A stretch of 34,804 nt of DNA. It comes from Acetobacteraceae bacterium. GTDB taxonomy: Bacteria; Pseudomonadota; Alphaproteobacteria; Acetobacterales; Acetobacteraceae. The notes beneath the pieces were generated by a model that saw only the letters and a program-made list of their open reading frames with translations, ran no database searches and had not been told where the DNA came from. The stretch lies in contig PKZM01000076.1 of assembly GCA_003133065.1 (NCBI GenBank), forward strand, positions 43,693 through 78,496. Reading direction: 5' to 3'. Position 1 is the stretch's first letter. Every line of letters starts with the position of its first letter. The position numbers and the translations under genes are program-made. Below are positions 1,043 to 34,217 of this stretch, piece after piece.

Positions 1043-2961
1043 GCGCCTCGCTCGCCACTGCCGATGTCATCCCCGAGGCCGCGCCACGACGCGGCCTGCT
1101 TGCTCAGGCGGAACGTGTGGTGCTGGCGATCCGGCTGACTCTGGCGATGTTTTCCGCCGGCCTGCTGGTGCTGGCGCTGGCGTGGCAATGGGCATTCCCC
1201 GCCGATACGGCGCTGGCCAACCTGATCGCAGGTGCGGCGGCGGTGCTGGTGACAGCGCCGGTCCTGGCCGCGGCCTGGCATAGCCTGCGCCATCCGAGCC
1301 TGCACGGCATTACCGACCGGCTGATCGCGCTGGCACTGGTGGGGGCCTGGGCGAGTGGGGATCTGATGACGGCGGCGGTGCTGCCGATCGTGATGATCCT
1401 CGGCCATGTGCTGGAGGAGCGTAGCCTGCTGGGCTCGCGCGAGGCGATCGGGGCGCTGTCGAAACTGGCGGAGACCTCGGCGCGGCGCCTGCGCGCCGAT
1501 GGCGGCGTGGAGGTGGTGCAAACGCGGACGCTCCGCCCCGGCGATCTGATCGAGCTGCGGGCCGGTGACCGGGTGCCGGCGGACGGGATCGTGCGCGATG
1601 GCGCGGCCAGCCTGGATACCGCGTCCCTCACCGGTGAGTCGGTGCCGGTGGATGTGCAAGCCGGTGCGCGGGTGATGGCCGGCTCCATCGACACCGATGG
1701 CCGGCTGGTGGTGGAGGTGGAGCGTGTGGGTGGGGACACCACACTCGGAAAGATCATTGCCCTGATGCGTACGGCGGAGCAGGCCAAGCCGCCGATCACC
1801 CGGCTGCTGGAGCGCTATGCGGGGCAATATATGGTGCTGGTGATCCTGGTGGCGGCCGGCACCTGGTTCGCGAGCGGCGACAGCATGGCGACTCTGGCGG
1901 TGCTGGTCGCCTCCTGCCCCTGCGCGCTGGTGCTGGCGGCGCCGGCCACCGCCATTGCCGCGATAGCGGTTGCGAGCCGGCACGGCATTCTGATCAAGGG
2001 CACGGCGTTTCTGGAGCATATGGCCGATGTGAATTCGGTGGTGTTCGACAAGACCGGCACGCTGACCACAGGCGCGCTGACGCTGACAGAGATTAAGTCT
2101 GAGCCGGGCGCCGACCCGGATGCGATGCGGCTGCTCGCGGCGAGCCTGGGGTCGGCGAGCAGCCATCCCGTCAGCCGCGCCGCCCGCCAGGCGGCAGGGG
2201 CGGCGGCGTTGCCAGGCATTGCGGCGGTGCGGGAGGCCGGCGGCTTTGGCGTGACCGGCATGATCGGGGACGAGGTGGTGGCATTTGGGCGGCCGGATTT
2301 GTTCGTGCGGCTGGGCGTGTCCCCCTCCGCTGTGCCCGCGCATGAGGGGCCGATTGCCGGGCTGAGCCGGGGCGGAATTTTCCTGGGGTGGCTGCTGTTT
2401 GCCGATCAGCCGCGGGCGGAGGCGGCGGAGGCTTTGGCAGGGCTGCGGCGGTTAGGGCTTGGCCGGCAGATGCTGCTGACGGGCGATCGGGCGGCGGTTG
2501 CGGCGAAGATTGCCGTCGGCTTGGGGATTGTGGAGGTGCAGTCCGATGCCTTGCCGGAGGCGAAGATGCGGCGGGTGCTGGCGGAGGCGGAAGCCGGGTA
2601 CCGGCCTTTGGTGGTGGGTGACGGCATCAACGATTCGCTGGCGTTGAAGGCGGGGGCCGTGGGGATTGCGATGGGCGCGCAGGGCACGGATGTGGCGCTG
2701 GCGTCGGCGGATTTGGTGCTGATGAGCAGCGATCTGCGGCGGTTGGGCACGGCGGTGCGGCTGAGCCGGCGATGCCGCCGGACGATTGCCGTCAATGTCG
2801 GACTCGGCCTTGGCTGGACGCTGGTGCTGATGGCGCTGGCGGCCACGGGGGAACTGGGTGCCGAAGGTGCCGTGGTGGCCGCGTTGCTGCACAATCTCTC
2901 GACGTTCCTGGGCGTTGCCAACGCCGGGCGCCTGATGCTGTTCGACGAGCCCTTAAAGTAA
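1039..2961 (+). CDS. Heavy-metal translocating P-type ATPase (P1B-like)
   Basis: LTGES, SCPCAL (CPC motif), DKTGT phosphorylation site, SSHPVS (HP motif), GDGIND hinge. No N-terminal CxxC HMA domain visible. ATGA overlap with upstream SPFH gene. Confidence 0.93.
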   Translation: MSASLATADVIPEAAPRRGLLAQAERVVLAIRLTLAMFSAGLLVLALAWQWAFPADTALANLIAGAAAVLVTAPVLAAAWHSLRHPSLHGITDRLIALALVGAWASGDLMTAAVLPIVMILGHVLEERSLLGSREAIGALSKLAETSARRLRADGGVEVVQTRTLRPGDLIELRAGDRVPADGIVRDGAASLDTASLTGESVPVDVQAGARVMAGSIDTDGRLVVEVERVGGDTTLGKIIALMRTAEQAKPPITRLLERYAGQYMVLVILVAAGTWFASGDSMATLAVLVASCPCALVLAAPATAIAAIAVASRHGILIKGTAFLEHMADVNSVVFDKTGTLTTGALTLTEIKSEPGADPDAMRLLAASLGSASSHPVSRAARQAAGAAALPGIAAVREAGGFGVTGMIGDEVVAFGRPDLFVRLGVSPSAVPAHEGPIAGLSRGGIFLGWLLFADQPRAEAAEALAGLRRLGLGRQMLLTGDRAAVAAKIAVGLGIVEVQSDALPEAKMRRVLAEAEAGYRPLVVGDGINDSLALKAGAVGIAMGAQGTDVALASADLVLMSSDLRRLGTAVRLSRRCRRTIAVNVGLGLGWTLVLMALAATGELGAEGAVVAALLHNLSTFLGVANAGRLMLFDEPLK

Positions 2962-3033
2962 AAGTTCTTTGCTTCTTTCTTTCCAGAAAGAAGAGTCTTT
3001 CTTCTTCCAATAGAAAAGAAGCAAAAGACCTTT
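2960..3033. repeat. Structured AT-rich repeat, full inverted pair (copy a)
   Basis: AAAAGTTCTTTGCTTCTTTCTTTCCAGAAAGAAGAG…AGAAAAGAAGCAAAAGACCTTT. Confidence 0.9.
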
Positions 3034-3073
3034 GACGCGCTATTTCGGACGCCCCGCAAGCCGCGCCGCGTTG

Positions 3074-4522
3074 TCAGTTGGAGAGGCGGGTGGCGCTGCT
3101 GATGGCCTGGCCGACCAGGGTGGTCATGGCGTTCTGGATGTCGGTGGGCGAACTCGCCTGAACGAAGTCGCTGGGGGAGGATGCGCAGGAGGTCAGCGAG
3201 CTCACCAGGCCGGGGCTGGCGGTGCCGTTGATATAGGGGGCGAGTTGCACGTTGTTGCCGGGCAGGGAGATGCTGTCGGAGGCGTAGGTCGTGTAGAGAA
3301 CGAAGACCGTGTAGCCTTTGTTCTTCATCACCTGGCAGACAGCGGGGTTGATCGGTCCTTCGGTGGTGGGGATGGCTTGCGGCCAGGTATCGTCCTCCAT
3401 CCCGTCAGTGACCAGGATCAGCGCGCGTTTGGGCGACGCCGACGTGCTGCCGTCGCCTGAATCCGGGAGCAACGCGGCGATGTCGTTGAAGGCGCTGCCG
3501 AAATTCGTGTCGATCTGCGTGTCGATGCCGACGGTGGGGGTGATCGTCGAGAGCGACGCGATCGCCGCGGCCGCGCCCTTGCCGCTGCCGCCGTTGTCGA
3601 TGGTGGTTTCGGAATAGACCGTTTGCAGGTACGAGGAACTGGCCATGTTGACGCCGCCGAAGGTGAAGACCCCGACGCTGAGCTGGTTGAGCACGGTCTC
3701 CAGGCTGACCATTTCCTGAATGCCGGCGGTGGTGGCGGTCTGCACCACATCCCACCGCAACGTGATGGCGGCAGCGCCGCTCGTGGTGCGGGTGAGTGCG
3801 AAATAATCGGTCTGGTTGGTTCCGCTCGATGTCGCTTTCCAATGACAGGCGAAATCGCATTGTGGAATGCTGGTGCCGATTCCGTCCGGCACGGACGCGG
3901 CGTTGCCCGGCACCGCCAGCCAGGTGAGGATCTTCGCTTCCAGGCTGGCCTCGGCGGAAGCGGTTGCGGCCAGCATCATCGAGGCGGTGTTGTCGATCAG
4001 GAAATCGACGGTGCCGAACTGGTTGATCGTGATGGTGGCCTTGGAGGTGTTGGCGATCTGGGCACCGGCCGCGCGTGACCAATTGAAGAGCTGGCCCAGA
4101 ACCAGGGGCACATTGGCCGTATAGGCGACAGTGACGGTGAAGGTGTTGCCGGATTGCGAGATCGTCTCGGTGGCGGTGGCATTGCTGGCATTGGTCAGGA
4201 TGCCGACCTGGGCGTTCCACCAGTCCAATGCCGCCTGCTCGCCTTTGGCGACGTAGCCTGTCTTACCAGCGGCATAATCGGCGCCGGCTTCGCGCGCGCC
4301 GGCGAAGGCGGCGGAGTCCGCGGCGAGATCGAGTTCCGCCTTGGCCTGCAAGACCCAGTCGAAATCCACCGCAAGTCCCACCAGCATCATGATCGGTACC
4401 AGGCCGCTGGCGAACATGACCGTGACGGCGCCACGCCGACGGGCCAGGCGCGCATGGCCGGGCAGGGCCCGCCGCATCCCGGGGGGACTAAATATAGCCG
4501 GGGCAGACATTGGGATCAGCAC
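3074..4522 (-). CDS. TadG-like pilus assembly protein with VWA-type domain
   Basis: RRRGAVTVMFASGLVPIMMLVGLAVDF (Flp/TadG N-terminal helix), LIDNTASMM MIDAS-like motif, ALILVTDGMEDD. Exact start uncertain (overlaps upstream stop). Confidence 0.8.
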   Translation of the reverse strand: MLIPMSAPAIFSPPGMRRALPGHARLARRRGAVTVMFASGLVPIMMLVGLAVDFDWVLQAKAELDLAADSAAFAGAREAGADYAAGKTGYVAKGEQAALDWWNAQVGILTNASNATATETISQSGNTFTVTVAYTANVPLVLGQLFNWSRAAGAQIANTSKATITINQFGTVDFLIDNTASMMLAATASAEASLEAKILTWLAVPGNAASVPDGIGTSIPQCDFACHWKATSSGTNQTDYFALTRTTSGAAAITLRWDVVQTATTAGIQEMVSLETVLNQLSVGVFTFGGVNMASSSYLQTVYSETTIDNGGSGKGAAAAIASLSTITPTVGIDTQIDTNFGSAFNDIAALLPDSGDGSTSASPKRALILVTDGMEDDTWPQAIPTTEGPINPAVCQVMKNKGYTVFVLYTTYASDSISLPGNNVQLAPYINGTASPGLVSSLTSCASSPSDFVQASSPTDIQNAMTTLVGQAISSATRLSN

Positions 4523-5195
4523 TGGTGTCGTAGGTGATGTAGCTGGAAACGATCGATCGCTGATTGAAATAGGCGGTCTGGTAGATGGTGAAAGAGCCGG
4601 TGATCAGATTCAGGAAGAAGGGCGTAAACTGCACGCGCACATCGACCACGAGCACCGACGAGAGCGAACTGCTCATCCCCGAGGTTGGAACCGTGGTCCA
4701 GTGATCGCCGGTATTGGAACCGCGCTGCGTTCCTGTCGGCGTGGTCTGGTTCACCACGCCGCATGGCCGGTACACGTCCATGCCGTAACTCAGCGGCACG
4801 CTCCAAGCCATGTTGGCGGTGTAGTTCGGCTCCGTGCCGGTGAAGACCACATCCGATATCGTCACGGCGAAGGTCGGGTTGCCGACGAGGCTGCGCAATT
4901 GCGGCAGGATGGCGAAGATGACCGATTCCGCCTGTTGCGCCTGGGTCGGCGTCAGCGAGGTGGTCTGGTTGGGCTGTATCGCGAGGAGGGTGGCGATTTC
5001 GCCCACCTGCTGCGCGACTTCGATGCTGCGCCGCTGCATGACGATGGCCTGCGTGGTGTCCATCGCGCCGATGGCGATGGACAGCATCACCGGGCTGATC
5101 ACGGCGAACTCCACCGCCGCGATGCCCGACTTGCGTGGCCAGAGGGAGCTTGCCCTTGTGCTGCCGGGTTGAGCGGGTTTCCTCCTGCTTAGCAT
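4488..5195 (-). CDS. TadE-like pilus assembly protein
   Basis: KSGIAAVEFAVISPVMLSIAIGAMDTTQAIVMQRRSIEVAQQ, TadE-type N-terminus. ATG at 5195 overlaps the stop of the upstream gene (ATGCTAA). Confidence 0.75.
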   Translation of the reverse strand: MLSRRKPAQPGSTRASSLWPRKSGIAAVEFAVISPVMLSIAIGAMDTTQAIVMQRRSIEVAQQVGEIATLLAIQPNQTTSLTPTQAQQAESVIFAILPQLRSLVGNPTFAVTISDVVFTGTEPNYTANMAWSVPLSYGMDVYRPCGVVNQTTPTGTQRGSNTGDHWTTVPTSGMSSSLSSVLVVDVRVQFTPFFLNLITGSFTIYQTAYFNQRSIVSSYITYDTSADPNVCPGYI

Positions 5196-5782
5196 CCCAC
5201 CGTATCCGGGCCAGTGAAAGATTCGTTGACAAAGCCCATCGATGAGGTGGTGACGCGAACGCGCGATGATCCCGACAGGACAGACATGCCGGGGACCAGC
5301 ATGCCGACGACGGTGGGAGAGACGTAAACGGCCTGGACCAGCATGAGCTGGCCAGGCGTGCCCGCGCAGTAGGCATAGCCGGAGGTGTTCAGCACACCAC
5401 CGGTGGTTGGCGTCGTGAGCTGCTGCGTGTAGAAATCGGTCGTTACGGGTTGCACGCCTATCGTGATGGCGTTGCAGTTCAGCAAGCCGGCAGCGACCGG
5501 ACATACGTATTGCGATTGAAACGCGGCGGCACTGGCGGCACTTTGGCCGGCACCGATCTGCACCCGGCGCGACGTTTCAGCCACAACGTAGTCCAGCGCG
5601 GTCTGCATATAGAAGTCGAGGCCGACCTCGAACAGAAAGAGAAAGAACATCAAAAACGGCACGCCAAGCACGGCGAATTCCACCGCGGTGGTGCCTGCTC
5701 TTCCGGTTCTGCTGCCCCGTTTCAGCAGGCGAAGGATGTTCTTCCCCGCCACGAGGTAATGCCGGCGATCGACCCAATTCAT
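5189..5782 (-). CDS. TadE-like pilus assembly protein
   Basis: GRAGTTAVEFAVLGVPFLMFFLFLFEVGLDFYMQTALDYVVAETSRRVQIG, TadE family. Internal start MNWVDRRHYL at 5782 preferred to the ORF-track start. Confidence 0.75.
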   Translation of the reverse strand: MNWVDRRHYLVAGKNILRLLKRGSRTGRAGTTAVEFAVLGVPFLMFFLFLFEVGLDFYMQTALDYVVAETSRRVQIGAGQSAASAAAFQSQYVCPVAAGLLNCNAITIGVQPVTTDFYTQQLTTPTTGGVLNTSGYAYCAGTPGQLMLVQAVYVSPTVVGMLVPGMSVLSGSSRVRVTTSSMGFVNESFTGPDTVGC

Positions 5783-6100
5783 TCCATCCAGCTCTGCGGT
5801 CAGGCAATGACGACAATACCTGATAGCAGGATGAAACCAGGTGCACAACAAAAATTGAGATTGCCACATCTCAAAAACCGTCCGAACCACCAAGATGTGT
5901 TGAGCGAGGGAGGATTGCGCGTGCGCCGCGCAGAGCGCCACAGCCAATAACTATTAATTGGCGAAAGGCTGACGAAAGAAAAGCCGATTTCTGTCGGGCG
6001 CGCGCGTTTTCGCAACGCTGCTGCAACAGGCGTGACGCCAGAAAATGGTCTAGAGCCTTGTTCCCACGGGCATCTTTATCGGTTGGGGTTAGGTGGTGCC

Positions 6101-7189
6101 CTAGGTGACGCGTGCTTTTTCGATGCGGCGGAAGACATAGGCGCCGGGACCGGATTCACGCACCGCCGCTTGCATCACGCCATGATCGGGCGACAGCTCG
6201 CAGGCGGGGTCGGTGGCGGTGAGGTCGCCCAGCAAGGCGAAGGCCTGGCACCGGCAGCCGCCCCAGTCGATCTCGCGGCGGTCGCAACTGCGGCAGGGTT
6301 CACGCATCCAGGCTGTGCCGCGGAAACGCAGGAACGCGTCCGCCTTGTGCCAGATGTCGGAAAGGGTCGTCTCGCGCACGGAGGGGAACACGAATCCGGG
6401 CAGGGTTTCGGCGGCGTGGCAGGGCATGGCGCGGCCCGAGGGGGAGATGTTGATGAAGCGCTGCGCCCACCCGCCCATGCAGGCTTTCGGGCGTGCCGCG
6501 TGATAGTCCGGCACCACGTAGTCGATCACCATGCGGCCGGCGAGGCGCAGCCTGGCGGCCTCAACCGCCTCGGTCGCGGCTTCAAGCTGTGCGCGGGTCG
6601 GCAGCAGGGCCGCGCGGTTGACCAGGCCCCAGCCGTAATACTGGACATGGGCGATCTCCGTACGCTCGGCGTGCAGGGCCTCGGCCATGTCGATCATCTG
6701 CGGGACGCGGGCGACGTTTTCGCGATGGACGACGAAGTTGACGGTGAGCGGCAGGCCTGCCTGGCGGATGCGGGCGGCGGCGGCCTGTTTTTTGGCGAAG
6801 GCGCCGCGGCTGTCGCCGATCATGTCGTTGCCCGCGGCGTCGCTATCCTGGAAACTGAGCTGGATATGGTCGACGCCGGCGGAGGTGAGCGCCGCCATGG
6901 CGCGGTCGTCGAGCGTGACGCCGGAGGTGATGATATTGGTGTAGAGCCCGAGGGCCGAGGCATGCCGCACGAGTTCGGGCAGGTCGCGGCGGACCAGGGG
7001 TTCGCCGCCGGTGAAATGGATTTGCAGGATGCCGATGGCAGACGCCTGGTCCAGCACGCGCCGCCAGGTTTCGGTATCCAACTCGGTCGACGCGCGCTCC
7101 AGTTCCAGCGGGTTGGAGCAATAGGGGCAGGAAAGCGGGCAGCGATGCGTGAGCTCCGCGATCAGGCCCAACGGCGGCGGTGCCATCAT
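6101..7189 (-). CDS. pqqE: PQQ biosynthesis radical SAM protein PqqE
   Basis: LTHRCPLSCPYCSNP (CxxxCxxC radical SAM motif), LHFTGGEPL-like motif, and C-terminal SPASM-type cysteines CRSCDRREIDWGGCRCQAF. Confidence 0.95.
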   Translation of the reverse strand: MMAPPPLGLIAELTHRCPLSCPYCSNPLELERASTELDTETWRRVLDQASAIGILQIHFTGGEPLVRRDLPELVRHASALGLYTNIITSGVTLDDRAMAALTSAGVDHIQLSFQDSDAAGNDMIGDSRGAFAKKQAAAARIRQAGLPLTVNFVVHRENVARVPQMIDMAEALHAERTEIAHVQYYGWGLVNRAALLPTRAQLEAATEAVEAARLRLAGRMVIDYVVPDYHAARPKACMGGWAQRFINISPSGRAMPCHAAETLPGFVFPSVRETTLSDIWHKADAFLRFRGTAWMREPCRSCDRREIDWGGCRCQAFALLGDLTATDPACELSPDHGVMQAAVRESGPGAYVFRRIEKARVT

Positions 7190-7231
7190 GTGATGTCGCC
7201 CGCTTGCCGGGCGCTGATGCCAGCGAGGCGT

Positions 7232-7277
7232 AAAAGTCTTTTTGCTTCTTTTTCTTCAGAAAAAGAAGATTCTTTTC
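7232..7277 (+). repeat. Structured AT-rich repeat, single half (copy b), between pqqD and pqqE
   Basis: AAAAGTCTTTTTGCTTCTTTTTCTTCAGAAAAAGAAGATTCTTTTCG. Confidence 0.9.
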
Positions 7278-7286
7278 GTTTGCTGG

Positions 7287-7568
7287 TCATAGTTTGACGG
7301 CGCCGCGGCTGGCGAGGTCGGCGAGCATGGTTTGCACGTCGGCGCGGATTTGCTCCGCCGGGGCGGCGAAGCGGGCGGCGAGGTCGGCGGCGATGGCGTC
7401 GACGCTGCGGGTTCCGTCGATCAGCTTGAGCACTTCCACCGCGTGTTCATCGGGCACGAACATGCGTTCCGGGCCGAGGATGACCCAGGCGCCGCGCACC
7501 TGATCGAAGCGGAATTTGTGGCCGCGGCCCAGGGTGGGGATGGGGCTGGCGAGCGTGTCGGCGGTCAT
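7287..7568 (-). CDS. pqqD: PQQ biosynthesis peptide chaperone PqqD
   Basis: 93 aa: GHKFRFDQVRGAWVILGPERMFVPDEHAVEVLKLIDGTRSVDAI, typical PqqD. ATGA overlap with pqqC stop. Confidence 0.93.
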   Translation of the reverse strand: MTADTLASPIPTLGRGHKFRFDQVRGAWVILGPERMFVPDEHAVEVLKLIDGTRSVDAIAADLAARFAAPAEQIRADVQTMLADLASRGAVKL

Positions 7569-8371
7569 GCGGGGATGAAGGCGCCGGGCGGGGGGGTGGC
7601 CGGAGTGACATAGGCATGTTCCAGCGCATCGAGCTGCGCCCAGAGAACATCGCATTTGAAGCGGAGGGCGGCGAGCACGGCCTGCTGCTCCGCCGCGGTG
7701 CGGGCGTGACGCTGCACATAGGCCAGGGCGAAATCGGAATCCTGGGGGGCCTGGGTGAGGCGGGGGGTGAAATAGGCGAGCGTTCCTTCCGTGATCCAGT
7801 CGTAATTGGCGAGCATGCCGGAGACGCGTTCGGCGATGATCTTCGGCGAGAAGAGCTCGGTGAGCGACGAGGCGACCGCTTCCAGGACCGTGCGGTCGCG
7901 CACGAAGGCGACATAGGCATCCACCGCGAAGCGCGTTGCGGGCAGGATACCGGTGCCGGACTGCACGTAGTCGCGGTCCAGGCCCACACCTTCGGCGAGT
8001 TTCAGCCAACGGGCGACGCCGCCGGTGTTGGGGGCATCGCCGTCATGGTCCACCAGGCGGCGGCGCCATTCGCGACGCAGCTCCGCGGTGGGAAGGCGGG
8101 CCAGCAGAGTGGCATCCTTCACCGGGATGGTCGCCTGGTAATAATAGCGGTTCAGCGCCCAGGCCTGAACCTGGCCACGGGTCAGGCCGCCGGCGTGAAG
8201 CAGGCGGTGGAACGGATGATGGATGTGGTAGCGCTCTGCACCGATGGCGCGCAGGGCATCGGCCAGATCTTCGGGCGACAGAAGCGTTTCAGTCAGCACG
8301 ATAGGGCGCTCCGATACGTTAGAGGCCGCCGTTCGGGGTGCCGCTGGTCGTGGCGCGATGGGCGATTTCAC
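7565..8371 (-). CDS. pqqC: Pyrroloquinoline-quinone synthase PqqC
   Basis: RYHIHHPFHRLLHAGGLTRGQVQAWALNRYYYQATIPVKDA, PqqC signature. Start codon may be internal. Confidence 0.95.
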   Translation of the reverse strand: MKSPIAPRPAAPRTAASNVSERPIVLTETLLSPEDLADALRAIGAERYHIHHPFHRLLHAGGLTRGQVQAWALNRYYYQATIPVKDATLLARLPTAELRREWRRRLVDHDGDAPNTGGVARWLKLAEGVGLDRDYVQSGTGILPATRFAVDAYVAFVRDRTVLEAVASSLTELFSPKIIAERVSGMLANYDWITEGTLAYFTPRLTQAPQDSDFALAYVQRHARTAAEQQAVLAALRFKCDVLWAQLDALEHAYVTPATPPPGAFIPA

Positions 8372-8498
8372 CGAACCTTGGGGATTTCCTGGCCATGCGG
8401 TTTACTCCGGCTATTTATTCTTCAGGCGCAAGCTTGGGCCCGTTTGGCGGAGGGGTCAATTTTCTGGCCCTATGGACGAAGGTGCGAGATGCGCGCCC

Positions 8499-9290: not shown

Positions 9291-9478
9291 CGAAGCTCCC
9301 CGGCTTGCCGACATCCCGGCGTTGAGCGCACGTGAACTTCAGAGTTGCAAATTCAAGCCAGCGGCACCGTTCAAAATCGCGCGATCGGGCGCGTTTTCAT
9401 GCATCCGCCAGGATCGTCGCGGAACGGTAACATCAACGCCATGGTCCCGCCGCATTGCAGGGTTTAACCAGGGCGATC

Positions 9479-10457: not shown

Positions 10458-10528
10458 AAAAGTCTTTTGCTTCTTTTCTTCAGAAAAGAAGACTCTTCTT
10501 TCTTGAAAGAAAGAAGCAAAGAACTTTT
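10458..10528. repeat. Structured AT-rich repeat, full inverted pair (copy c)
   Basis: AAAAGTCTTTTGCTTCTTTTCTTCAGAAAAGAAGACTCTTCTTTCTTGAAAGAAAGAAGCAAAGAACTTTT. Confidence 0.95.
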
Positions 10529-13225: not shown

Positions 13226-13274
13226 AAAAGTTTTTTGGTTCTTTTTTTCAAAAAAGAACATACTTCTTTTTTTA
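13226..13274 (+). repeat. Structured AT-rich repeat, single half, GGTTC/GAAC variant (copy d)
   Basis: AAAAGTTTTTTGGTTCTTTTTTTCAAAAAAGAACATAC. Confidence 0.9.
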
Positions 13275-14094: not shown

Positions 14095-14107
14095 AAGGAA
14101 GACAGGC

Positions 14108-14219
14108 CTTCTTTTTTGAAAAAAAGAAGCAAAAAACTTTTGCTCTTGTGGCCGACGCTGCCGGCGAGGCGCGTACCAGGTGGTGAGAGTTTTTTGCTTC
14201 TTTTTTTCAAAAAAGAAGA
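14108..14219. repeat. Back-to-back half elements with GC-rich spacer (copy e)
   Basis: CTTCTTTTTTGAAAAAAAGAAGCAAAAAACTTTT - spacer containing ACGCTGCCGGCGAGGCGCG - GAGAGTTTTTTGCTTCTTTTTTTCAAAAAAGAAG. Confidence 0.9.
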
Positions 14220-14230
14220 CACTTTCCTTC

Positions 14231-14860
14231 TTACTTACTGACAAGAATAACATCCAGCGTCCTGGGCCCATGCACCCCCTCCACGCGATCCAGTTCGATA
14301 TCCGCCGTCGCCGACGGCCCGCTCAAGAACGTCACCGGCGCCCCCAGCATCACCCGCGCCTGCAGCGCCGCGATGGCTTCAGGCACAATGCCCACCACAT
14401 CGCTCTCGCGCACCACGCACAGGTGGTAATCCGGCAGTAGCGTCAGCGCGCGGCGTCCCTGCCCAAGGCCGCCATCCAGCACCACGGTGCCCGTCTCCGC
14501 GATGCCGATGAAACTTCCCGTCATCGCGCCCGCGGCGGCGTTCAGATCTTCCAGGCTCAGCCCCGTATCCTCGCGCGGCAGGGGGCTGGAGGGCCGCCAA
14601 GAGGCCGGCATGTCGGCGGGGACGACAAGGGAGGTGATGCCCCGCGTGGCAAGTTGGCGGGTGGCCACCTGCCCAATCTCGGAATCGCCGCGCGCGCGGA
14701 TCACGCCGACATGGTAATCGGAAAGCCGTTCGACGAAGCGCGCGATGATCTCCGCGCGGTCGGCGGCCCAAACGCGGCGATACGCCGCACGCGGCGTGGC
14801 CGCGGCGGCCACGGGCACAGCCTCTCGGATGCGGGCGATGATTTCGTCCCGTCCGCTCAC
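14231..14860 (-). CDS. lutC: Lactate utilization protein C (LUD domain)
   Basis: ARGITSLVVPADMP…GSFIGIAETGTVVLDGG…LLPDYHLCVV. GTG start overlapping lutB stop (GTGA). Confidence 0.85.
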   Translation of the reverse strand: MSGRDEIIARIREAVPVAAAATPRAAYRRVWAADRAEIIARFVERLSDYHVGVIRARGDSEIGQVATRQLATRGITSLVVPADMPASWRPSSPLPREDTGLSLEDLNAAAGAMTGSFIGIAETGTVVLDGGLGQGRRALTLLPDYHLCVVRESDVVGIVPEAIAALQARVMLGAPVTFLSGPSATADIELDRVEGVHGPRTLDVILVSK

Positions 14861-17214: not shown

Positions 17215-17284
17215 AAAAGTTCGTTGCTTCTTTCTTTCAAGAAAGAAGGCCCTCTTTTCTGAAGAAAAGAAGCAAAAGACTTTT
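17215..17284. repeat. Structured AT-rich repeat, full inverted pair (copy f)
   Basis: AAAAGTTCGTTGCTTCTTTCTTTCAAGAAAGAAGGCCCTCTTTTCTGAAGAAAAGAAGCAAAAGACTTTT. Confidence 0.95.
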
Positions 17285-17285
17285 A

Positions 17286-21397: not shown

Positions 21398-21432
21398 AAA
21401 AGTTTTTTGGTTCTTTTTTTCAAAAAAGAACA
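21398..21432 (+). repeat. Structured AT-rich repeat, single half, GGTTC/GAAC variant (copy g)
   Basis: AAAAGTTTTTTGGTTCTTTTTTTCAAAAAAGAACA. Confidence 0.9.
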
Positions 21433-22832: not shown

Positions 22833-22868
22833 CAAAGTCTTTTGCTTCTTTTCTTCAGAAAAGAAGAT
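22833..22868 (+). repeat. Structured AT-rich repeat, single half (copy h)
   Basis: CAAAGTCTTTTGCTTCTTTTCTTCAGAAAAGAAGAT; overlaps the IMPase stop codon. Confidence 0.9.
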
Positions 22869-23731: not shown

Positions 23732-23806
23732 AAAAGTTTTTTGCTTCTTTTTTTCAAAAAAGAAGGATTCTTCTTTTTCTGAAGAAAAAGAAGCAAAAAG
23801 ACTTTT
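23732..23806. repeat. Structured AT-rich repeat, full inverted pair (copy i)
   Basis: AAAAGTTTTTTGCTTCTTTTTTTCAAAAAAGAAGGATTCTTCTTTTTCTGAAGAAAAAGAAGCAAAAAGACTTTT. Confidence 0.95.
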
Positions 23807-23808
23807 AT

Positions 23809-25212: not shown

Positions 25213-25435
25213 CGAACAATTGAATGGGCGCGCCGGGCATCACGGTGCTGATGGCGTGCTTGTAGACAAGCTGGGTATGCCCATCCCGGCGCAACAGCAC
25301 GGAAAAATTATCGAACCAGGTAATGATGCCCTGCAGCTTCACGCCATTGATCAGGAAGACGGTGACCGGGGTTTTGGCCTTGCGCACGTGGTTCAGAAAC
25401 ACGTCCTGAACATTTTGCGATTTTTCTGTGGCCAC
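25154..25435 (-). CDS. hfq: RNA chaperone Hfq
   Basis: [58 protein letters not shown]. Confidence 0.97.
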
Positions 25436-25592
25436 GAAAGTTTGCCCTTCTTTGTTTGCGCCGGCCCTGCGTTGGTGCGGGCCGTATCCGCCTGGTGGCG
25501 CCGCTGCAAAGCGACGCCGTAGTGCCCTGCAAGCATCGTACCGCTCTTGCCGCAGTGCAGCAAAACGGTGTTAGCAGCTTACCACGGCGTGG

Positions 25593-26471: not shown

Positions 26472-26487
26472 GACAGTCCTTGTCCCT

Positions 26488-26534
26488 AGAGCATCATCCG
26501 ACCACATGGGGTCACCTGTCGGATAAAGATGCTC
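26488..26534. repeat. Palindromic repeat copy 1 (AGAGCATCATCCGAC … GTCGGATAAAGATGCTC)
   Basis: Arms complementary except for a 3-nt bulge. Confidence 0.8.
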
Positions 26535-26550
26535 GTCAAAACAAATAGCT

Positions 26551-26600
26551 AGAGCATTTTCCGACCGGCTCACCTGAGTCAAAACGATCGGAAATGCTCT
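26551..26600. repeat. Palindromic repeat copy 2 (AGAGCATTTTCCGA … TCGGAAATGCTCT)
   Basis: Arms complementary except for a 1-nt bulge; same arm consensus as copy 1. Confidence 0.8.
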
Positions 26601-26653
26601 GGCGCCCGGTCGGGGTGCCCGATCCGGTCCGGATCCAAGCGGGCCTCGGCTGC

Positions 26654-27187: not shown

Positions 27188-27485
27188 CCGATTGCCAAAA
27201 TTGCTTCCCTGTTCGAAGCGCCCCGCCCTCTGTGAGGCAGCCCGGCCGGCCATGGCCAAAAGATGCCACACCGTGAGCCGCCACCAGCAAGGAAGGCCTG
27301 CGTCGAGTTTCCTCGCCATAAGGTTGGCGGGCTGCCGCGCCGCGCCCGCCGCCATGGCAGGCATATCCGCAGCGAGTCCGTAGCCATGGCAAGTTAAAAT
27401 CGCCTCACCGGACCCGCTGTCGACGGCGCAGACGGACCCTAGCCGTAGCTTGCCCTGCTGCCAAACGATTTTTTTGGCCCGGCCA

Positions 27486-28334
27486 TCACCCGCCGCGCGC
27501 CGCGCGCGCGATCAGGGCCCTGGGTATGCCCGCCAGATCCCCCTGCGTGCCCATATGCGTCAGTCCCGCGTCGATGGCCAGGGCGGCCACCGCCTCCGCC
27601 TGGCCTTGCCCCAACTCCAGCACCGCCACGCCATGCGGCGCCAGCAAGGCTGGTATCTGCCGCAACACGGCACGATACGCATCCAATCCGTCCGCCCCGC
27701 CGGCGAGCGCCCTGACCGGCTCGTAACACCGCACCTCCGGCATCAGGGCGGCCAAGTCGCCTTCCCGGATGTAGGGGGGGTTGCAGAGAACCAGGTCAAA
27801 GCGGCCGCCAATGGAAGATGCCCAGTCGGCAGCCGCAAACGCGGCGCGGTGCGCCAGGCCGCTTGCATGCGCGTTCTGCGCGGCCAGACGCGCGGCGCCG
27901 GGCGAGATGTCGATGCCGACGCCGAAGGCCCCGGGGAACTCGCTCAGGGCTGCCAGCAGCAGGCACCCGGTGCCGGTGCCCAGGTCCAGCACACGCCTGA
28001 CAGCGGACCGATCGGGAAAACGGCCGATCGCCGCCGCGATGAGCGTCTCGCTATCGGGGCGGGGGATCAGCGTATCGGGGGAAACGGCGATATCCAGCGT
28101 CCAGAACCCGCGCTGGCCGGTGATGAAGGCCAGCGGCTCCCGCAGCACCCGGCGCGCGACCAGGGCGCCCAGGGCCGCCGCATCGATATCCATATCCGCG
28201 GGCAGCAGGCCGCCCGCCCGCACGCCGAGCACATGGGCGGCCAGCAAACGCGCTTCCCGCCGCGGCGCCTCCACGCCAGCCGCACCCAGCGACCGCGCGG
28301 CATCATCGATGGCGGCGCCCAGCCTCATGGCCAC
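27486..28334 (-). CDS. prmC: Peptide chain release factor N5-glutamine methyltransferase
   Basis: LAFITGQRGFWTLDIAVSPDTLIPRPDSETL, DLGTGTGCLLLAAL, LVLCNPPYI. Confidence 0.95.
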   Translation of the reverse strand: MAMRLGAAIDDAARSLGAAGVEAPRREARLLAAHVLGVRAGGLLPADMDIDAAALGALVARRVLREPLAFITGQRGFWTLDIAVSPDTLIPRPDSETLIAAAIGRFPDRSAVRRVLDLGTGTGCLLLAALSEFPGAFGVGIDISPGAARLAAQNAHASGLAHRAAFAAADWASSIGGRFDLVLCNPPYIREGDLAALMPEVRCYEPVRALAGGADGLDAYRAVLRQIPALLAPHGVAVLELGQGQAEAVAALAIDAGLTHMGTQGDLAGIPRALIARAARGG

Positions 28335-28406
28335 TCCTCACAACGCCCCATCTGCCCAACACCCGATCTTCGGCTATGCTGCCTTATACGTCACGGACCC
28401 CATCTG

Positions 28407-28850
28407 ATGCGTCATCTCGCCCCATTGCTGTTTTGCCTCGCAAGCGCGCCCGCCGCCGCGTCGGCCGGCACGATCACCTTCCATATCTCCGACGAAACCG
28501 ACCCGGCGGAGGTGACGGAGGCGACAACCGTATTCATCAACGGCCAGCTCGTGGCGCATTTCGAGCTCAGCGCCGCCCATCCCTTCGCCGAGGTGGCAGT
28601 CACGGTACCGGAAGCCAAAAACTACGAATATGCGCTGTGCGGCCGAATCACCATCCGGGCGGCAGATGGGCATAGCGAAACGCATGTGCTGGATGATGGG
28701 GCGACCCTGCCCAACCCCGCGGGGCGCCATCTGGAGGCACTGGCGGCGGATGGGTTCACCACGTTCTTCCTGGGGGAGCGTACTGGCGGGCCCGCGGCGT
28801 CGCCGGTGGATCTTCATAAGACGAACGTGTGTAGTATTCCGATATCGTAA
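28407..28850 (+). CDS. Predicted secreted protein of unknown function
   Basis: 147 aa with signal peptide MRHLAPLLFCLASAPAAASA; beta-rich remainder; no family recognised. Confidence 0.7.
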   Translation: MRHLAPLLFCLASAPAAASAGTITFHISDETDPAEVTEATTVFINGQLVAHFELSAAHPFAEVAVTVPEAKNYEYALCGRITIRAADGHSETHVLDDGATLPNPAGRHLEALAADGFTTFFLGERTGGPAASPVDLHKTNVCSIPIS

Positions 28851-28862
28851 GGAAGGAAGAGT

Positions 28863-28973
28863 CTTCTTTTTTGACAAAAAGAAGCAAAAAACTTTCAATA
28901 CTGGCGTACGCTGCCGGCGAGGCGCGCACCAACAGGCAAAAGTTTCTTGCTTCTTTTTTTCAAAAAAGAAGAG
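28863..28973. repeat. Back-to-back half elements with GC-rich spacer (copy j)
   Basis: CTTCTTTTTTGACAAAAAGAAGCAAAAAACTTTC - AATACTGGCGTACGCTGCCGGCGAGGCGCGCACCAACAGGC - AAAAGTTTCTTGCTTCTTTTTTTCAAAAAAGAAG. Confidence 0.9.
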
Positions 28974-28979
28974 CCTTGC

Positions 28980-29369
28980 TTACTCCGGCTGATGCATCAC
29001 CTTCGCCGGATCCTCCCCATATGGCGGCGCATAAATCACCAGCATCTTGATCCGTTCCGTCAGCACCTTGATGGAATGAAACACGCGGGCCGGAAAAAAC
29101 ATCATGTCGCCCGGCTTGATGTGATGGTCCACGCCATCGATACCGGCGATGGCCTCACCCTCCAGAACATACACTGCCTGCTCCAGGTCCGGATGCGCGT
29201 GCGGCGGCGATCCCTCGTGCCGCTCGATGTCGCCGAGCGCGATCTCCATGTATTTCGCGCCATTCACCTTCGGCCCGACCAGCCGGTAGTTCTTGGTGCC
29301 CGTGTGGTTGGCCGGGCTATAGGCTTCCTGCTCCTCGGCCCTGATGACATAGGGCGATTTCGTGGTCAT
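28980..29369 (-). CDS. Cupin-domain protein
   Basis: PPHAHPDLEQAVYVLEGEAIAGIDGVDHHIKPGDMMFFPARVFHSIK cupin motifs. ATGA overlap with upstream gene. Confidence 0.88.
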   Translation of the reverse strand: MTTKSPYVIRAEEQEAYSPANHTGTKNYRLVGPKVNGAKYMEIALGDIERHEGSPPHAHPDLEQAVYVLEGEAIAGIDGVDHHIKPGDMMFFPARVFHSIKVLTERIKMLVIYAPPYGEDPAKVMHQPE

Positions 29370-30277
29370 GCCTGAACTTCCTTCTCTGCGCGCATGCGAG
29401 CGCCCGCCGCCTCGGCCGCGGCCACGGCCGATTCCAGCTTGAGGATGCGCACCGCGTTCCGGTGAAACAGTTTTTCGATGATGGCGGGCTTGAACCCCTC
29501 CATCTGCCACTCGTCGCAGCATTGGCCGGGGCTCCAGCCGGGATAGTCGGATCCGAAAAGCACTTTGTCCTGCAAGCGGCGTTGCATATCGTGCTTCAGG
29601 GCCGCCGGCACGTATTTGGGTCCCCAGCCGGAAATATCGATCGATACGTTGCGCTTGTGCAAGGCAACCGCGATCAGCTCCTCCGTCCATGGCCAGCCGG
29701 GATGCGCCGCGATGATGTTCAGCTTGGGAAAGTCCGCGGCCACATCATCGATGTTAGGGATCGGCCGCGCGTGCCCCAGCTTGAAGCCAAGCCCGCCCGG
29801 CTCGCCCGCGCCGATGGCTGTGGTGCCGCAATGGATCAGCACCGGCGCGCCGAGAGACTGCAACAGATCCCAGATCGGATAGAACTGCCTGTCGTTGGGC
29901 GAAAACCCCTGCACCGGCGGCTGATATTTGATGCCCACAAGCCCCAGATGCTTGATCGCGTGCTCGATCTCTTCCAGGCCCTTGCGGCCGCGCCAGGGAT
30001 CCACCATGCCCCAGCCGGGCAGGAACACATCGGGATAGGTGCGGCAGAGTTCAGCCAGCGTATCGTTGGCATAAACCCCGCCGGCTGCACCGTGTTCGGC
30101 GTCCCAGGCAATGGGCAACGCCAGCACATCGTCGCGCCGGAAATCCTCGGCAATCTGGCTATCCGGCCGCGCATCGAACTTGCCCGCGAACATGCGCTGG
30201 GCCGCCGGCATGAAGGGCAGGCTCGCCTCCACATAGGCCGGGTTCATCGGATGGACATGCACATCTATGGCGCGCAC
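29366..30277 (-). CDS. Amidohydrolase family 2 (ACMSD-like TIM-barrel metal hydrolase/decarboxylase)
   Basis: IDVHVHPM (HxH), VLIHCGTTA, IAAHPGWPWTEE, LFGSDYPGWSP. GTG start inferred at 30277. Confidence 0.88.
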   Translation of the reverse strand: MRAIDVHVHPMNPAYVEASLPFMPAAQRMFAGKFDARPDSQIAEDFRRDDVLALPIAWDAEHGAAGGVYANDTLAELCRTYPDVFLPGWGMVDPWRGRKGLEEIEHAIKHLGLVGIKYQPPVQGFSPNDRQFYPIWDLLQSLGAPVLIHCGTTAIGAGEPGGLGFKLGHARPIPNIDDVAADFPKLNIIAAHPGWPWTEELIAVALHKRNVSIDISGWGPKYVPAALKHDMQRRLQDKVLFGSDYPGWSPGQCCDEWQMEGFKPAIIEKLFHRNAVRILKLESAVAAAEAAGARMRAEKEVQA

Positions 30278-31305
30278 AGAACCGCCTCCTGGGCCAGCAT
30301 CGCGGGCAGACTCGCCAGCCAGTCCCGCGCGATCGCGCCCGTATCGCCGCCCTCCAGGATCAGTACCAGGCGCGAGCGATGATCCTGATCCGGCCACGCC
30401 TTCAGGCAAACCGGGGCATGCAGCACGTGCTGAACCCCCTGCACCACCACCGGACCGGCTGCCTCCGCGCAGTTCAGCACACCCTTGATCCGCAGCAGCC
30501 GGCTGGCATTGGCGACGCGCACCTCCCGCAGCCACGCCTCCACCGCACGCCAGCGCAGTTTCTGGTGCGCCACCAGCGATACCGAGACCGTGCGCTCCGC
30601 ATGGTGATGCGCATGCGCCACGGGCGCAACCTCCGCCACCAGAAGCTCGTCGCTGAGCGCTGCGGGATCCACAAACCCGGCCGGCAGCACCGCGGCCGCA
30701 TCCACCGCGCCGTGCCGGACCTCAAAAATCTCGGCCGCCGGGTTGATGTGGCGCAGCACATCGCGAAGACGGCCGGCACTGCCATCCTCCGCGAGATCGC
30801 CCTTGGTGATCACCAGCCGATCCGCCAGCGCCACCTGCCGCCGCGTTTCCCCATGGCGCGCGATCTGCGCCTCGGCGAACACCGCATCCACGGTGGTGAT
30901 GATCGCTTCCAGCCGCAGCACCGCGGCCAGCACCGGATTGCGCAGGATGGCCTGCGCGATCGGCCCGGGATCGGCCAGGCCCGAGGGTTCCACGATCAGC
31001 CGTTTGAACGCCGGCAGATCGCCGTTCTGCCGGCGCGAGAAGATGCGCATCACCGCATCCTCCATATCGCCGGAAAGGTTGCAGCACAGGCAGCCATTTG
31101 CCATCACCACGGTGCTATCGCCATCATGCTCGATCAGCAGTTGATCCAGCGGGATTTCACCGAATTCGTTGATGGCGACAGCCGTCTCCGCAAGGCGCGG
31201 ATCGCGCAGCAGGGCGTTCACCAGCGTTGTCTTGCCGCTGCCGAGAAAGCCGCTCAGCAGCACCACCGGCAGCCGCGCCCGGTCGCGCGCCTGATCAAGA
31301 AACAC
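30265..31305 (-). CDS. CobW/COG0523 G3E-family GTPase (putative metallochaperone)
   Basis: VVLLSGFLGSGKTTLVNALL (Walker A), ANGCLCCNLSGD (CxCC metal motif), VEPSGLADPGPI. GTG start inferred. Confidence 0.92.
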   Translation of the reverse strand: MFLDQARDRARLPVVLLSGFLGSGKTTLVNALLRDPRLAETAVAINEFGEIPLDQLLIEHDGDSTVVMANGCLCCNLSGDMEDAVMRIFSRRQNGDLPAFKRLIVEPSGLADPGPIAQAILRNPVLAAVLRLEAIITTVDAVFAEAQIARHGETRRQVALADRLVITKGDLAEDGSAGRLRDVLRHINPAAEIFEVRHGAVDAAAVLPAGFVDPAALSDELLVAEVAPVAHAHHHAERTVSVSLVAHQKLRWRAVEAWLREVRVANASRLLRIKGVLNCAEAAGPVVVQGVQHVLHAPVCLKAWPDQDHRSRLVLILEGGDTGAIARDWLASLPAMLAQEAVLCAP

Positions 31306-32620
31306 CGGCCGCCTCCGCGGGCACGGCGCGCGGGCGCAGCGCGTAGAAAGCAGCCCCCGCCAGGATCGCCAGCACCGCGATCGCGCCCAGCCCCAGGCGG
31401 AAATCGCCTGTGGCATCCTTGATCCGCCCGATGAACCAGGGCGAGACGATGCCGCCCGTGACCCCCAGCGCGCTGATCGCAGCGATGCCGCCCGCCGCAG
31501 CCCCCCCGGTCAGAAACGTGCCAGGGATCGACCAGAACGGCGTGGTGAACGCCAGCGTGTTCGCGAACGCCACCGATATCAGCGCCACCCGCACCGTGGG
31601 ATCGGCCACCAGCACGGAGCCCAGCAGAGCGAGGCCCGCCACCGCATTGGGCAGCGCCGCATGGCCATAGCGTTCGCCATGCTTGTCCGAATGACGGGAC
31701 CACCAGATCAGCGCCACCAGCGCCAGAACACTCGGGATGGCGACCACGAAGCCAGTCTGCCCCACGGTCAGCCCGAACCCCTTCACGATCTGCGGCAGAA
31801 AGAAGGTGATGCTGTTCAGCACGCAGACATTGCTGAAATACAGCGCAGCCAGCAGCAGCACGCGCGGATTGGTCAGGCCGTTCAGGATGGAATACGTTCC
31901 GGCCCCATCCACCGCCGCCCGTTCACGCGCCAATTGCGCGATCAGCCACGCGCGTTCGGCCGCCGGCATCCACGTCGCTTGGGCCGGCCCGTCTTGCAGC
32001 CAGAATGCCACCATCGGCGCGAGCACAAAGGCCGGGGCCGCTTCAATCAGATACAGCCACTGCCAGCCTTGCAGGCCGCCCAGCCCGTTCAGCCCCAGCA
32101 ATTGGCCCGAAAGCGGCGCGCCGATAATGCCGCTGACGGGGATGGCCGCGATGAAGATGCCCAGGATGCGCGCGCGATAGGCGGCCGGAAACCACAGCGT
32201 CAGGAAGAACAGCACACCCGGATAGAACCCGGCCTCCGCCGCGCCCAGCAGCAGCCGCACCACGTAAAAACTCGTCTGCCCGCCAACAAACGCCATGGCG
32301 CCGGCGCATAGGCCCAGCGTCACCATGATCCGTGCCAGCCAGCGTGTGGCCCCCACACGATGCAGCATCAGGTTGGACGGCACCTCGCACAGACAGTAGG
32401 TGACGAAAAACAGCCCCGCCCCCAGCCCATAGGCCGCACTCGTCAGCCCCAGCGCCTTGTTCATCTGCAAGGCGGCAAAACTCAGATTCACCCGATCGAG
32501 ATAGGTGATGAAATAGCACAGGATCAGCACAGGGATAAGCCGCCACGCCGTACGCCGTATCGCCGACCGGCCCACATCATGCGCGGAAACAGGTTGTGCG
32601 ATCTCGACCTGCATGGCCAT
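31295..32620 (-). CDS. MFS transporter, ACS-type (organic anion) family
   Basis: 12-TM protein with LIPVLILCYFITYLDRVNLSFAALQMNKALGLTSAAYGLGAGLFFVTYCLCEVPSNLMLHRVGATRWLARIM. Confidence 0.92.
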   Translation of the reverse strand: MAMQVEIAQPVSAHDVGRSAIRRTAWRLIPVLILCYFITYLDRVNLSFAALQMNKALGLTSAAYGLGAGLFFVTYCLCEVPSNLMLHRVGATRWLARIMVTLGLCAGAMAFVGGQTSFYVVRLLLGAAEAGFYPGVLFFLTLWFPAAYRARILGIFIAAIPVSGIIGAPLSGQLLGLNGLGGLQGWQWLYLIEAAPAFVLAPMVAFWLQDGPAQATWMPAAERAWLIAQLARERAAVDGAGTYSILNGLTNPRVLLLAALYFSNVCVLNSITFFLPQIVKGFGLTVGQTGFVVAIPSVLALVALIWWSRHSDKHGERYGHAALPNAVAGLALLGSVLVADPTVRVALISVAFANTLAFTTPFWSIPGTFLTGGAAAGGIAAISALGVTGGIVSPWFIGRIKDATGDFRLGLGAIAVLAILAGAAFYALRPRAVPAEAAGVS

Positions 32621-32720
32621 GCTCGTCTCTTTCCTCCGTGCCGGCGCGTCATCGCGCTCTTGCTGGACTCTCGCAACCACCGACTCGGTACGCACCGGAG
32701 GCGGGCAGCAATCTCGCCTG

Positions 32721-32738
32721 GGCGAAAAGATTTTCGCC
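32721..32738. promoter_or_regulatory. Perfect palindrome GGCGAAAA-GA-TTTTCGCC, candidate operator upstream of the MFS operon
   Basis: 8-bp perfect arms, about 100 bp upstream of the MFS start in the divergent intergenic region. Confidence 0.5.
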
Positions 32739-32896
32739 ATTGCGACAGAGCATGTTTGCCTGGGGGCGTCAAGCCGCGCGGCTTCCCGGAATTGGCCGTC
32801 AGATCCCGCAAACAGGCGCAGCCCAGGCCTTTATTCCCACGGAGTTATACGCTATGGTGAAACTATCTTCGCATCAGCGAAAAAGTAAAATCAAAA

Positions 32897-32916
32897 CCGC
32901 ACGCCCGAGCATGCGG
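32897..32916. promoter_or_regulatory. Inverted repeat CCGCACGC-CCGA-GCATGCGG just upstream of the CaiB-family gene
   Basis: 8-bp arms with one mismatch, ending about 17 bp before the ATG. Confidence 0.4.
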
Positions 32917-32932
32917 ATAAAGGGAAACAGAC

Positions 32933-34129
32933 ATGTCTAGCCCGTCCAGTTCACCACCCCCCGGGCAGGCCGTATGGGGCACGCAGTCGCCGCCGCCCAC
33001 CGGGCCGTTGAGCGGCGTGCGGGTGCTGGACCTGACCACCGTGGTGATGGGCCCCTCCGCCACGCAAATGCTCGGCGACATGGGAGCCGATGTGATCAAG
33101 GTGGAAACCGCCGCCGGCGACAATATGCGCTGGATCGGGCCGTGGCGCCATGAGGGGATGGGCCCGCTGTTTCTACAGGCCAACCGAAACAAGCGCAGCA
33201 TCGTGCTGGATCTGAAATCGCCGCAGGGCAAGGCCTATGCGCTGAGCCTGGCGCGCGAGGCCGATGTGCTGGTCTCCAACGTACGGCCGCAGGGGTTGCA
33301 GCGGCGCGGGCTGGATTACGACACGCTGAAAGGCGTGAACCCCGCGCTGATCTATTGCGCGGCCGTGGGCTACGGCTCGGGCGGCCCCAATACCGGCCGC
33401 GCGGTATATGACGACCTGATGCAGGCGGCTTCCGGCATTGCCGGGCTGTTCCAGCGCGTGGATGGCGCCCCGCGCTACGCACCCATCAATCTCTGCGACC
33501 GCACGGTGGGGCTGTATGCCGTGATTGCCGTCACCTCCGCGCTGTATCACCGCGCCCGCACCGGGCAGGGGCAGATGATCGAGGTGCCGATGTTCGAAAC
33601 GATGGCGCAGTTCGTTCTGGCCGATCATTCCGGCGGCGGCGCGTTTGTACCGCCGCAGGGCGACATGGGCTATAAACGCCTCCTCTCACGCACGCGCGGG
33701 CCGTATGCCACGGCGGACGGATATCTGGCACTGGTAGTCTACACGGACCGGCACTGGCGCGATTTTGCGGTGCTGATCGGCGAGCCGGATTTGATGCGCA
33801 CCGATCCGCGCTTCGCCACCCAGGAAAGCCGCACGCAGAACGCCGAGGCGATCGGCGCCAAGCTTGCCGCGCATCTTCTTGCCCGCGGCAACGCGGAATG
33901 GCTGGAGGTGCTGCATGGCGTGGACATTCCCGCCTGCCCGGTGAACGCGGTTGAGGATCTCTACGAGGACCCGCATCTGAAAGCCGTCGGCTTCTTCCAG
34001 GACACCGAGCACCCCACCGAGGGCACGCTGAAAGTCAGCCGCTTCCCCATCCAATTCTCCGCCACCCCCGCAAACCTCCAGCGCCTCGCGCCCACATTGG
34101 GAGAACATAACGACACGGTGCTGACATGA
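32933..34129 (+). CDS. CaiB/BaiF CoA-transferase family protein
   Basis: GVRVLDLTTVVMGPSATQMLGDMGADVIKVETAAGDNMR, LFLQANRNKRSIVLDLK, DDLMQAASGIAGL. Confidence 0.95.
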   Translation: MSSPSSSPPPGQAVWGTQSPPPTGPLSGVRVLDLTTVVMGPSATQMLGDMGADVIKVETAAGDNMRWIGPWRHEGMGPLFLQANRNKRSIVLDLKSPQGKAYALSLAREADVLVSNVRPQGLQRRGLDYDTLKGVNPALIYCAAVGYGSGGPNTGRAVYDDLMQAASGIAGLFQRVDGAPRYAPINLCDRTVGLYAVIAVTSALYHRARTGQGQMIEVPMFETMAQFVLADHSGGGAFVPPQGDMGYKRLLSRTRGPYATADGYLALVVYTDRHWRDFAVLIGEPDLMRTDPRFATQESRTQNAEAIGAKLAAHLLARGNAEWLEVLHGVDIPACPVNAVEDLYEDPHLKAVGFFQDTEHPTEGTLKVSRFPIQFSATPANLQRLAPTLGEHNDTVLT

Positions 34130-34143
34130 CGGCACCCACAGGT

Positions 34144-34217
34144 AAAAGTCTTTTTGCTTCTTTTTCTTCAGAAAAAGAAGATTCTTCTTTCTTGAAAGAA
34201 AGAAGCAAAGAACTTTT
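34144..34217. repeat. Structured AT-rich repeat, full inverted pair (copy k)
   Basis: AAAAGTCTTTTTGCTTCTTTTTCTTCAGAAAAAGAAGATTCTTCTTTCTTGAAAGAAAGAAGCAAAGAACTTTT. Confidence 0.95.

Follow-up and report, generated by a model that had tools for sequence, protein, structure and literature searches.

What kind of element is repeated at 11 intergenic loci within a 34,804-bp stretch (34.8 kb; hereafter the window) of an Acetobacteraceae genome (assembly GCA_003133065.1, contig PKZM01000076.1, positions 43,693–78,496)? An earlier note, made from the letters alone, had described these loci as structured AT-rich elements in a GC-rich background, comprising five full inverted pairs, four solo halves and two back-to-back pairs; it recognised no named family and offered as likely classes a miniature inverted-repeat transposable element (MITE) or repetitive extragenic palindrome (REP)-like element, or a structured terminator. 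All 11 loci are present, and the sequences return exactly the same arrangement of 5 head-to-head pairs, 2 back-to-back pairs and 4 solo halves, the 17-base core of the half-unit (up to three mismatches) giving 18 matches in the window where 0.04 would be expected, with no shuffle coming close. The GC content of the window is 65.5%, so the half-unit loci are indeed AT-rich islands. Our analysis indicates that they probably belong to one non-autonomous dispersed mobile element family, restricted as sampled to Acetobacteraceae, with two distinct ends of triplex type.

The searches of the host genome and of other Acetobacteraceae that the earlier note had proposed both turned up abundant copies. 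The host genome contains 1,554 half-units (up to three mismatches, 4.19 Mb), and the control pattern read backward gave 0. A 30-base pattern with two mismatches allowed was found in 55 of 200 Acetobacteraceae genomes, representing 33 of 102 genera. Copies are spread very unevenly among them: three species of the window's genus carry 1,164, 526 (G128) and 22 copies, another genus 1,036, and G062, whose assembly is 100% complete, 111. The repeat was absent from about 285 alphaproteobacterial genomes of other families. Rfam gave 0 matches at the gathering score, so neither of the two outcomes that the earlier note had named as refuting it occurred; the sub-threshold matches were to microRNA and plastid hairpins only, and those to microRNA precursors were dismissed as chance matches of long hairpins. 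A literature search for the repeat sequence returned nothing relevant. The RepRanger study gives 1,369 REPs for Lichenicola cladoniae, a member of the Acetobacteraceae, with general palindrome counts and no motif in its main text. The repeats constitute a real, family-wide, dispersed family with a layout like that of REPINs (REP doublets forming hairpins), and as far as the literature and databases searched show, they have no earlier name.

Anatomy of the unit

The host genome (hereafter G000) is an assembly of 4.19 Mb in 230 contigs, and G049 and G128 are its congeners; the statistics given below for G000 cover the fetched stretches, about 0.68 Mb (678 kb). Aligned halves follow the consensus ..RAACAGRY-AAAAG-TTTTTT-G-[GC]TTCTTTTT-TTCA-AAAAAGAA[CG]-AYTCTTYCTTYCTT, in which a pyrimidine tract precedes a short hairpin. 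The outer stem pair of the hairpin is CG in 135 cases, GC in 102 and something else in 11, a count free of detection bias, whereas the counts for the other pairs are biased because detection of a half itself required pairing.

These 678 kb hold 61 back-to-back pairs and 11 head-to-head pairs, along with 103 solo halves. The spacing of back-to-back pairs is sharp at 80-85 bp, with a second class at 96-98 bp. The same GC-rich spacers are found at several loci, usually in the form of an imperfect inverted repeat. The complete unit is therefore larger than the half-unit described earlier: it measures about 140-150 bp and is the back-to-back pair, running polypurine, half, spacer, half, polypyrimidine, with the recurring GC-rich spacer inside it. 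Joining these two halves at the polypyrimidine side instead gives the head-to-head pair. Other genera have a different spacer sequence, often again an inverted repeat. In Gluconacetobacter and Pseudoroseomonas (loci L106, L150 and L104) the spacers are long inverted repeats, for instance ATTCGTTCAGG..CCTGAACGAAT, whose sequence is unrelated to that of the G000 spacers, so the central arm seems to be kept as a structure rather than as a sequence.

The two halves of a unit tend to differ. Back-to-back pairs combining one GTTC..GAAC half with one CTTC..GAAG half make up 46 of 63 pairs in G000 (31.5 expected), 40 of 44 in other genera (22 expected) and 7 of 7 in G062; in the commonest mixed pair the GTTC..GAAC half has an all-T tract and the CTTC..GAAG half has a C in its tract. 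This excess is explained by a mobile unit with distinct left and right ends but not by a requirement for a single long palindrome, and the sequences suggest that the unit usually has such distinguishable ends. The whole element had also been drawn as one long hairpin. That fold can be drawn and is stable (z score -7.3), but since the two halves are preferentially of different subtypes, it was rejected as the conserved structure, which is each half's own hairpin.

Covariation along a putative third strand

The half subtypes differ either in stem length or at one of three stem positions near the loop, where C-G replaces T-A. Each such change is matched by T to C at one position of the upstream tract, in the order that a tract lying parallel to the purine arm would give. 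Across 544 halves from five sources and several genera, a tract T faces a T-A pair 2,016 times and a C-G pair 0 times, while a tract C faces T-A 8 times and C-G 130 times. Tract and stem lengths vary together as well, being 6/9 in 481 halves, 7/10 in 52, 8/11 in 3 and 5/8 in 8, with about 18 off the diagonal. When reduced to 53 distinct sequences, the set gives 18 double-change cells in the parallel register, where shuffling gives 2.6 and none of 500 shuffles comes as high; six shifted registers have 0 each. Watson-Crick (antiparallel) pairing of the tract to the purine arm was considered and rejected, with 1 double-change cell, at chance level. Pairing between the halves is no explanation of the covariation: in mixed-subtype back-to-back pairs, 79 of 88 tracts agree with their own stem, and the two tracts agree with each other in 21 of 44 cases.

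Each half presents, on one strand and in matching register, a 5' Hoogsteen pyrimidine tract, the pyrimidine arm and the purine arm, which is the class IV order among intrastrand triplex-forming (ITxF) sequences as the classes are defined by Holder et al. (PMC4666352). The covariation is the pattern expected of T.A-T and C+.G-C triads in a class IV fold, and the complementary strand would be class II. Since few independent founding changes stand behind these counts, we take the intrastrand pyrimidine-motif triplex of each half as a putative structure with good support from the sequence.

The covariation might instead go back to conversion between tract and stem in the founders of a few subfamilies, without any triple helix. 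A few main subtypes do give most of the counts, and identical copies are non-independent. However, the matching triple change recurs at three positions and in several lengths, across several genera and different stem backgrounds, T with C-G is never seen, and a copied tract predicts an antiparallel agreement that is absent here. We regard this explanation as unlikely.

Gain, loss and position between genes

The copies in the window are as follows (strand in brackets; pairs are unstranded).

2960..3034 (unstranded): head-to-head pair with a decayed right half, directly past the stop of the gene at 1039-2961
7232..7268 (+): solo half-unit of the T5-C subtype, in an insertion of about 100 bp between two co-directed genes
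10458..10528 (unstranded): head-to-head pair between convergent genes
13226..13259 (+): solo half-unit of the GTTC/T6 subtype; the orthologous sites of G049 and G128 lack the half
14096..14235 (unstranded): back-to-back pair, a complete unit, from polypurine through half, GC spacer and half to polypyrimidine
17215..17285 (unstranded): head-to-head pair
21398..21431 (+): solo half-unit of the GTTC/T6 subtype between divergent genes
22833..22866 (+): solo half-unit of the CTTC/TC subtype
23732..23806 (unstranded): head-to-head pair, with an empty site in G049
23737..23765 (+): dissected half of the preceding pair (AAAAG ahead), with Hoogsteen tract TTTTTT, G, stem CTTCTTTTT, loop TTCA and stem AAAAAGAAG
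28849..28985 (unstranded): back-to-back pair, a complete unit; many copies elsewhere in the genome resemble it, at up to about 90% identity
34144..34218 (unstranded): head-to-head pair at the ATGA stop/start junction of a CaiB-like and enoyl-CoA hydratase-like gene pair

Several of these sites are empty in relatives. The intergenic distance at 23732 is 102 bp in G000 and 1 bp in G049, and a 107-bp gap between aligned ends at 7232 shrinks to 6 bp in G128, where the genes overlap or abut. The 34144 element, of which an 87-bp copy (98% identical) lies on contig C2 of the same genome, interrupts an overlapping junction; in the paralogous gene pair, which lies on contig C28, this junction is intact. 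The second gene of the interrupted pair apparently uses a new start further on. The reverse case also occurs, with G128 carrying a unit where the G000 genes overlap. Among the orthologous gene pairs scored between G000 and G049, 0 elements were shared, 5 were in G000 only and 1 in G049 only; between G000 and G128 the corresponding numbers were 2 shared and 3 on either side. The scoring pattern overlooks diverged copies; at the 14108 locus it scores none in G128, where a variant unit with another spacer and other stem subtypes is visible. Spacers at different loci are up to 95% identical, and their flanks are about 50% identical, as at random. These observations show gain and loss of elements and their dispersal as a unit, and we infer transposition as the route of spread.

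These features resemble those of a classical MITE, that is, an insertion sequence of DDE type shortened by deletion, with the halves as its terminal inverted repeats: the unit is about 150 bp long, has inverted and slightly different ends and a variable interior, and an apparent start/stop codon duplication surrounds two insertions. Correia elements and other bacterial MITEs are likewise non-autonomous 100-150-bp units with inverted ends that lie between genes. In contrast to them, the ends here consist of a hairpin plus a third strand, neither of which a MITE end needs, so the covariation would be left unexplained, and no parent insertion sequence with these ends was found in the fetched sequence. 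A classical MITE therefore seems improbable.

Genes for the placement analysis were called with a simple codon-usage gene caller. Halves lay within genes in 0 of 123 cases in one sample and in 7 of 365 in G000 and G128 together, where 84-85% of the sequence is coding. Gene 3' ends facing a back-to-back pair are within 20 bp of its hairpin in 85% of cases (median 9 bp), and the hairpins have U-rich tails on both strands, as would suit a gene-end signal serving the host (a bidirectional terminator, a stabiliser of mRNA 3' ends or a translation brake) that has spread through its usefulness. In E. coli, moreover, REPs up to 15 nt from a stop codon are reported to stall ribosomes (PMC12306157). Against such a signal, solo halves between co-directed genes are 23 sense and 24 antisense, showing no strand preference, and among intergenic regions of at least 60 bp, elements are present in all three kinds: 13 of 43 divergent, 19 of 35 convergent and 50 of 105 co-directed ones. 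Congeners manage without nearly all copies, the stems are AT-rich, and a scan of part of the window for terminator-like structures gave 19, barely above the 13.7 of shuffles (standard deviation 5.0). A host-serving signal is accordingly very improbable. The structured-terminator class suggested earlier is not supported either, given strand-neutral solo halves, no concentration between convergent genes, and gain and loss at orthologous sites; the sense-strand orientation and position tied to gene 3' ends that mark intrinsic terminators were not found. Tolerated insertion, in which divergent promoter regions are avoided to some extent, accounts for the placement better than a terminator would. 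An apparent replication-strand bias in G062 disappeared in the full list of copies.

Known repeats, the mobilising enzyme and host range

Comparable layouts are found in REPs, bacterial interspersed mosaic elements (BIMEs) and REPINs, which are associated with REP-associated tyrosine transposases (RAYTs, TnpA_REP): these are short extragenic palindromes in hundreds of copies, single or in inverted pairs around a spacer, which spread as a unit and lie near stop codons. The present repeat is also high-copy and extragenic, with inverted pairs moved as a unit, and could be a divergent REP/REPIN family mobilised by the RAYTs of the same genomes. A search with Pfam PF01797 alone found no REP transposase in G000, which proved to be a failure of sensitivity, since a RAYT protein query gave six matches there. 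RAYT matches occur in 37 of 200 Acetobacteraceae genomes (34 at E <= 1e-20), and the protein is assigned to NCBIfam NF047646 (205.8 bits). RAYTs are present in 15 of 30 genomes with at least 10 element copies and in 19 of 170 others, p=4e-6 uncorrected for kinship.

Other evidence points away from these enzymes. RAYT genes with readable flanks, including those of G000, have their own GC-rich GTAG-type palindromes, so the AT-rich repeat is not the cognate REP, and AT-rich halves lie within 1.5 kb of RAYT genes at only a few of the loci read. One such gene (L324, G000:C40:2587-3075) is flanked by GTAG-type GC-rich REPs, GTAGGGTGGGGTGC..GCACCCCACC, and represents a separate classical REP system. 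A RAYT match is lacking in half of the element-rich genomes, including G128 with its 526 copies and the complete G062, and within the genus copy-poor G049 has RAYTs where copy-rich G128 has none. The foot consensus of the AT-rich halves is AAAAGTTTTTTG, and the GTAG/CGTC foot is absent from the aligned halves; CGTC repeats were found missing in Acetobacteraceae in a 2013 survey (PMC3733652). The family thus fails two defining tests of RAYT-mobilised REPs, the GTAG/CGTC tag and a cognate RAYT flanked by the same palindrome, and mobilisation by RAYTs is quite unlikely, although working like a REPIN remains an apt description. Unlike REPs and REPINs, the present repeat is AT-rich, tag-free and non-cognate to the RAYT of its genome, with a covarying third strand and two distinct ends. 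The mobile-element reading behind the MITE/REP-like class proposed earlier is supported: sites are empty in congeners or in a paralogous gene pair, congeners differ in copy number, and near-identical units are scattered through the genome. A RAYT in a genome need not be the mover of the commonest palindromic repeat of that genome.

TM_ECO, an enterobacterial intrastrand-triplex repeat of purine-motif class II (Holder et al. 2015, PMC4666352) that reaches 143 copies in a genome, resembles the present family as a dispersed repeat of bacteria able to form a triplex within one strand, with copy numbers that differ sharply between close relatives. Its G/C-rich purine motif, 5'-CCCTCNCCC..GGGNGAGGG..GGGNGAGGG, is not that of the present sequence, which is A/T-rich, class IV on one strand and class II on the other; the present repeat also has about 10 times more copies, inverted pairs and three-strand covariation. 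Triplex-forming bacterial repeats have so far been proposed from sequence and studied with oligonucleotides. In the major-groove triple helices of RNA, such as the telomerase RNA pseudoknot and the element for nuclear expression (ENE) of MALAT1/PAN, a pyrimidine tract similarly runs along the purine strand of an adjacent hairpin. Those are RNA, whereas the present repeat bears no sign of selection for a transcribed strand.

For the mobile element family with triplex-type ends, the following mechanism can be proposed. The single-stranded half would fold into a 9-11-bp hairpin, whose purine arm would also be bound by the pyrimidine tract immediately 5' to give a class IV intrastrand triplex. The copies would be spread by an enzyme that most likely recognises the folded ends, survive where they are harmless, between genes and next to stop codons, and leave solo halves as remnants or partial copies. 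A bolder proposal, which we consider doubtful, is that this is a bacterial mobile element of a new class, whose two ends, folded into triple helices of single-stranded DNA, would be recognised by an enzyme that is not the known REP transposase, and which would have shaped intergenic regions family-wide.

Several observations weigh against the account of a mobile element family with triplex-type ends. The variant subtypes may descend from a handful of founding events, so that the cell counts overstate independence; the third strand is joined to the stem through a single nucleotide and may be strained; and physical formation of the triplex is read from the covariation. Mixed-subtype pairs in G128, 13 of 34 compared with 10.5 expected, show little excess, which leaves two-endedness weak there. 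Elements are common to two species at 2-3 orthologous sites, so some are old. The flanks of two insertions suggest a start/stop codon duplication, but the relatives are too diverged (about 70-82% identical) to prove a target-site duplication of fixed length. Neither a mobilising enzyme nor an autonomous copy was found among the half-flanked genes of the fetched sequence, where no gene family recurs between closely flanking halves.

Substitutions that track one another across all three strands are the expected look of natural selection for a triple helix, and we are aware of them in no other family of dispersed repeats. With about 1,500 copies in one genome, 22 in a congener and many empty sites, the family offers a system for asking whether triplexes form in cells, how they affect replication and gene ends, and which enzyme mobilises them.

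Named carriers include Gluconacetobacter, Acidiphilium, Roseomonas and Pseudoroseomonas, and similar units also occur on plasmids of Pseudoroseomonas cervicalis. The exact repeat was further seen on contigs labelled as metagenome-assembled genomes (MAGs) of Acidobacteria, Nitrospirae and Oscillospiraceae (L092, L119 and L130), which are probably mislabelled or mis-binned because the repeat is otherwise specific to Acetobacteraceae. A 684-aa protein is 100% identical between G128 and a lichen (Lobaria) MAG, CAHJWU01 (L097, L282), so the window's genus is probably lichen-associated.

Two further features of the window were noted. The gene cluster at 31295-34802 contains CaiB-like and enoyl-CoA hydratase-like genes, so named by eye, and its paralogue on contig C28 of G000 is 70-80% identical. 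A second, unrelated repeat of about 118 bp lies between two genes at 26486-26604; it is of the type AGAGCATTTTCCGAC ... GGAAATGCTCT and has many copies elsewhere in the genome, the best of them 95-98% identical.

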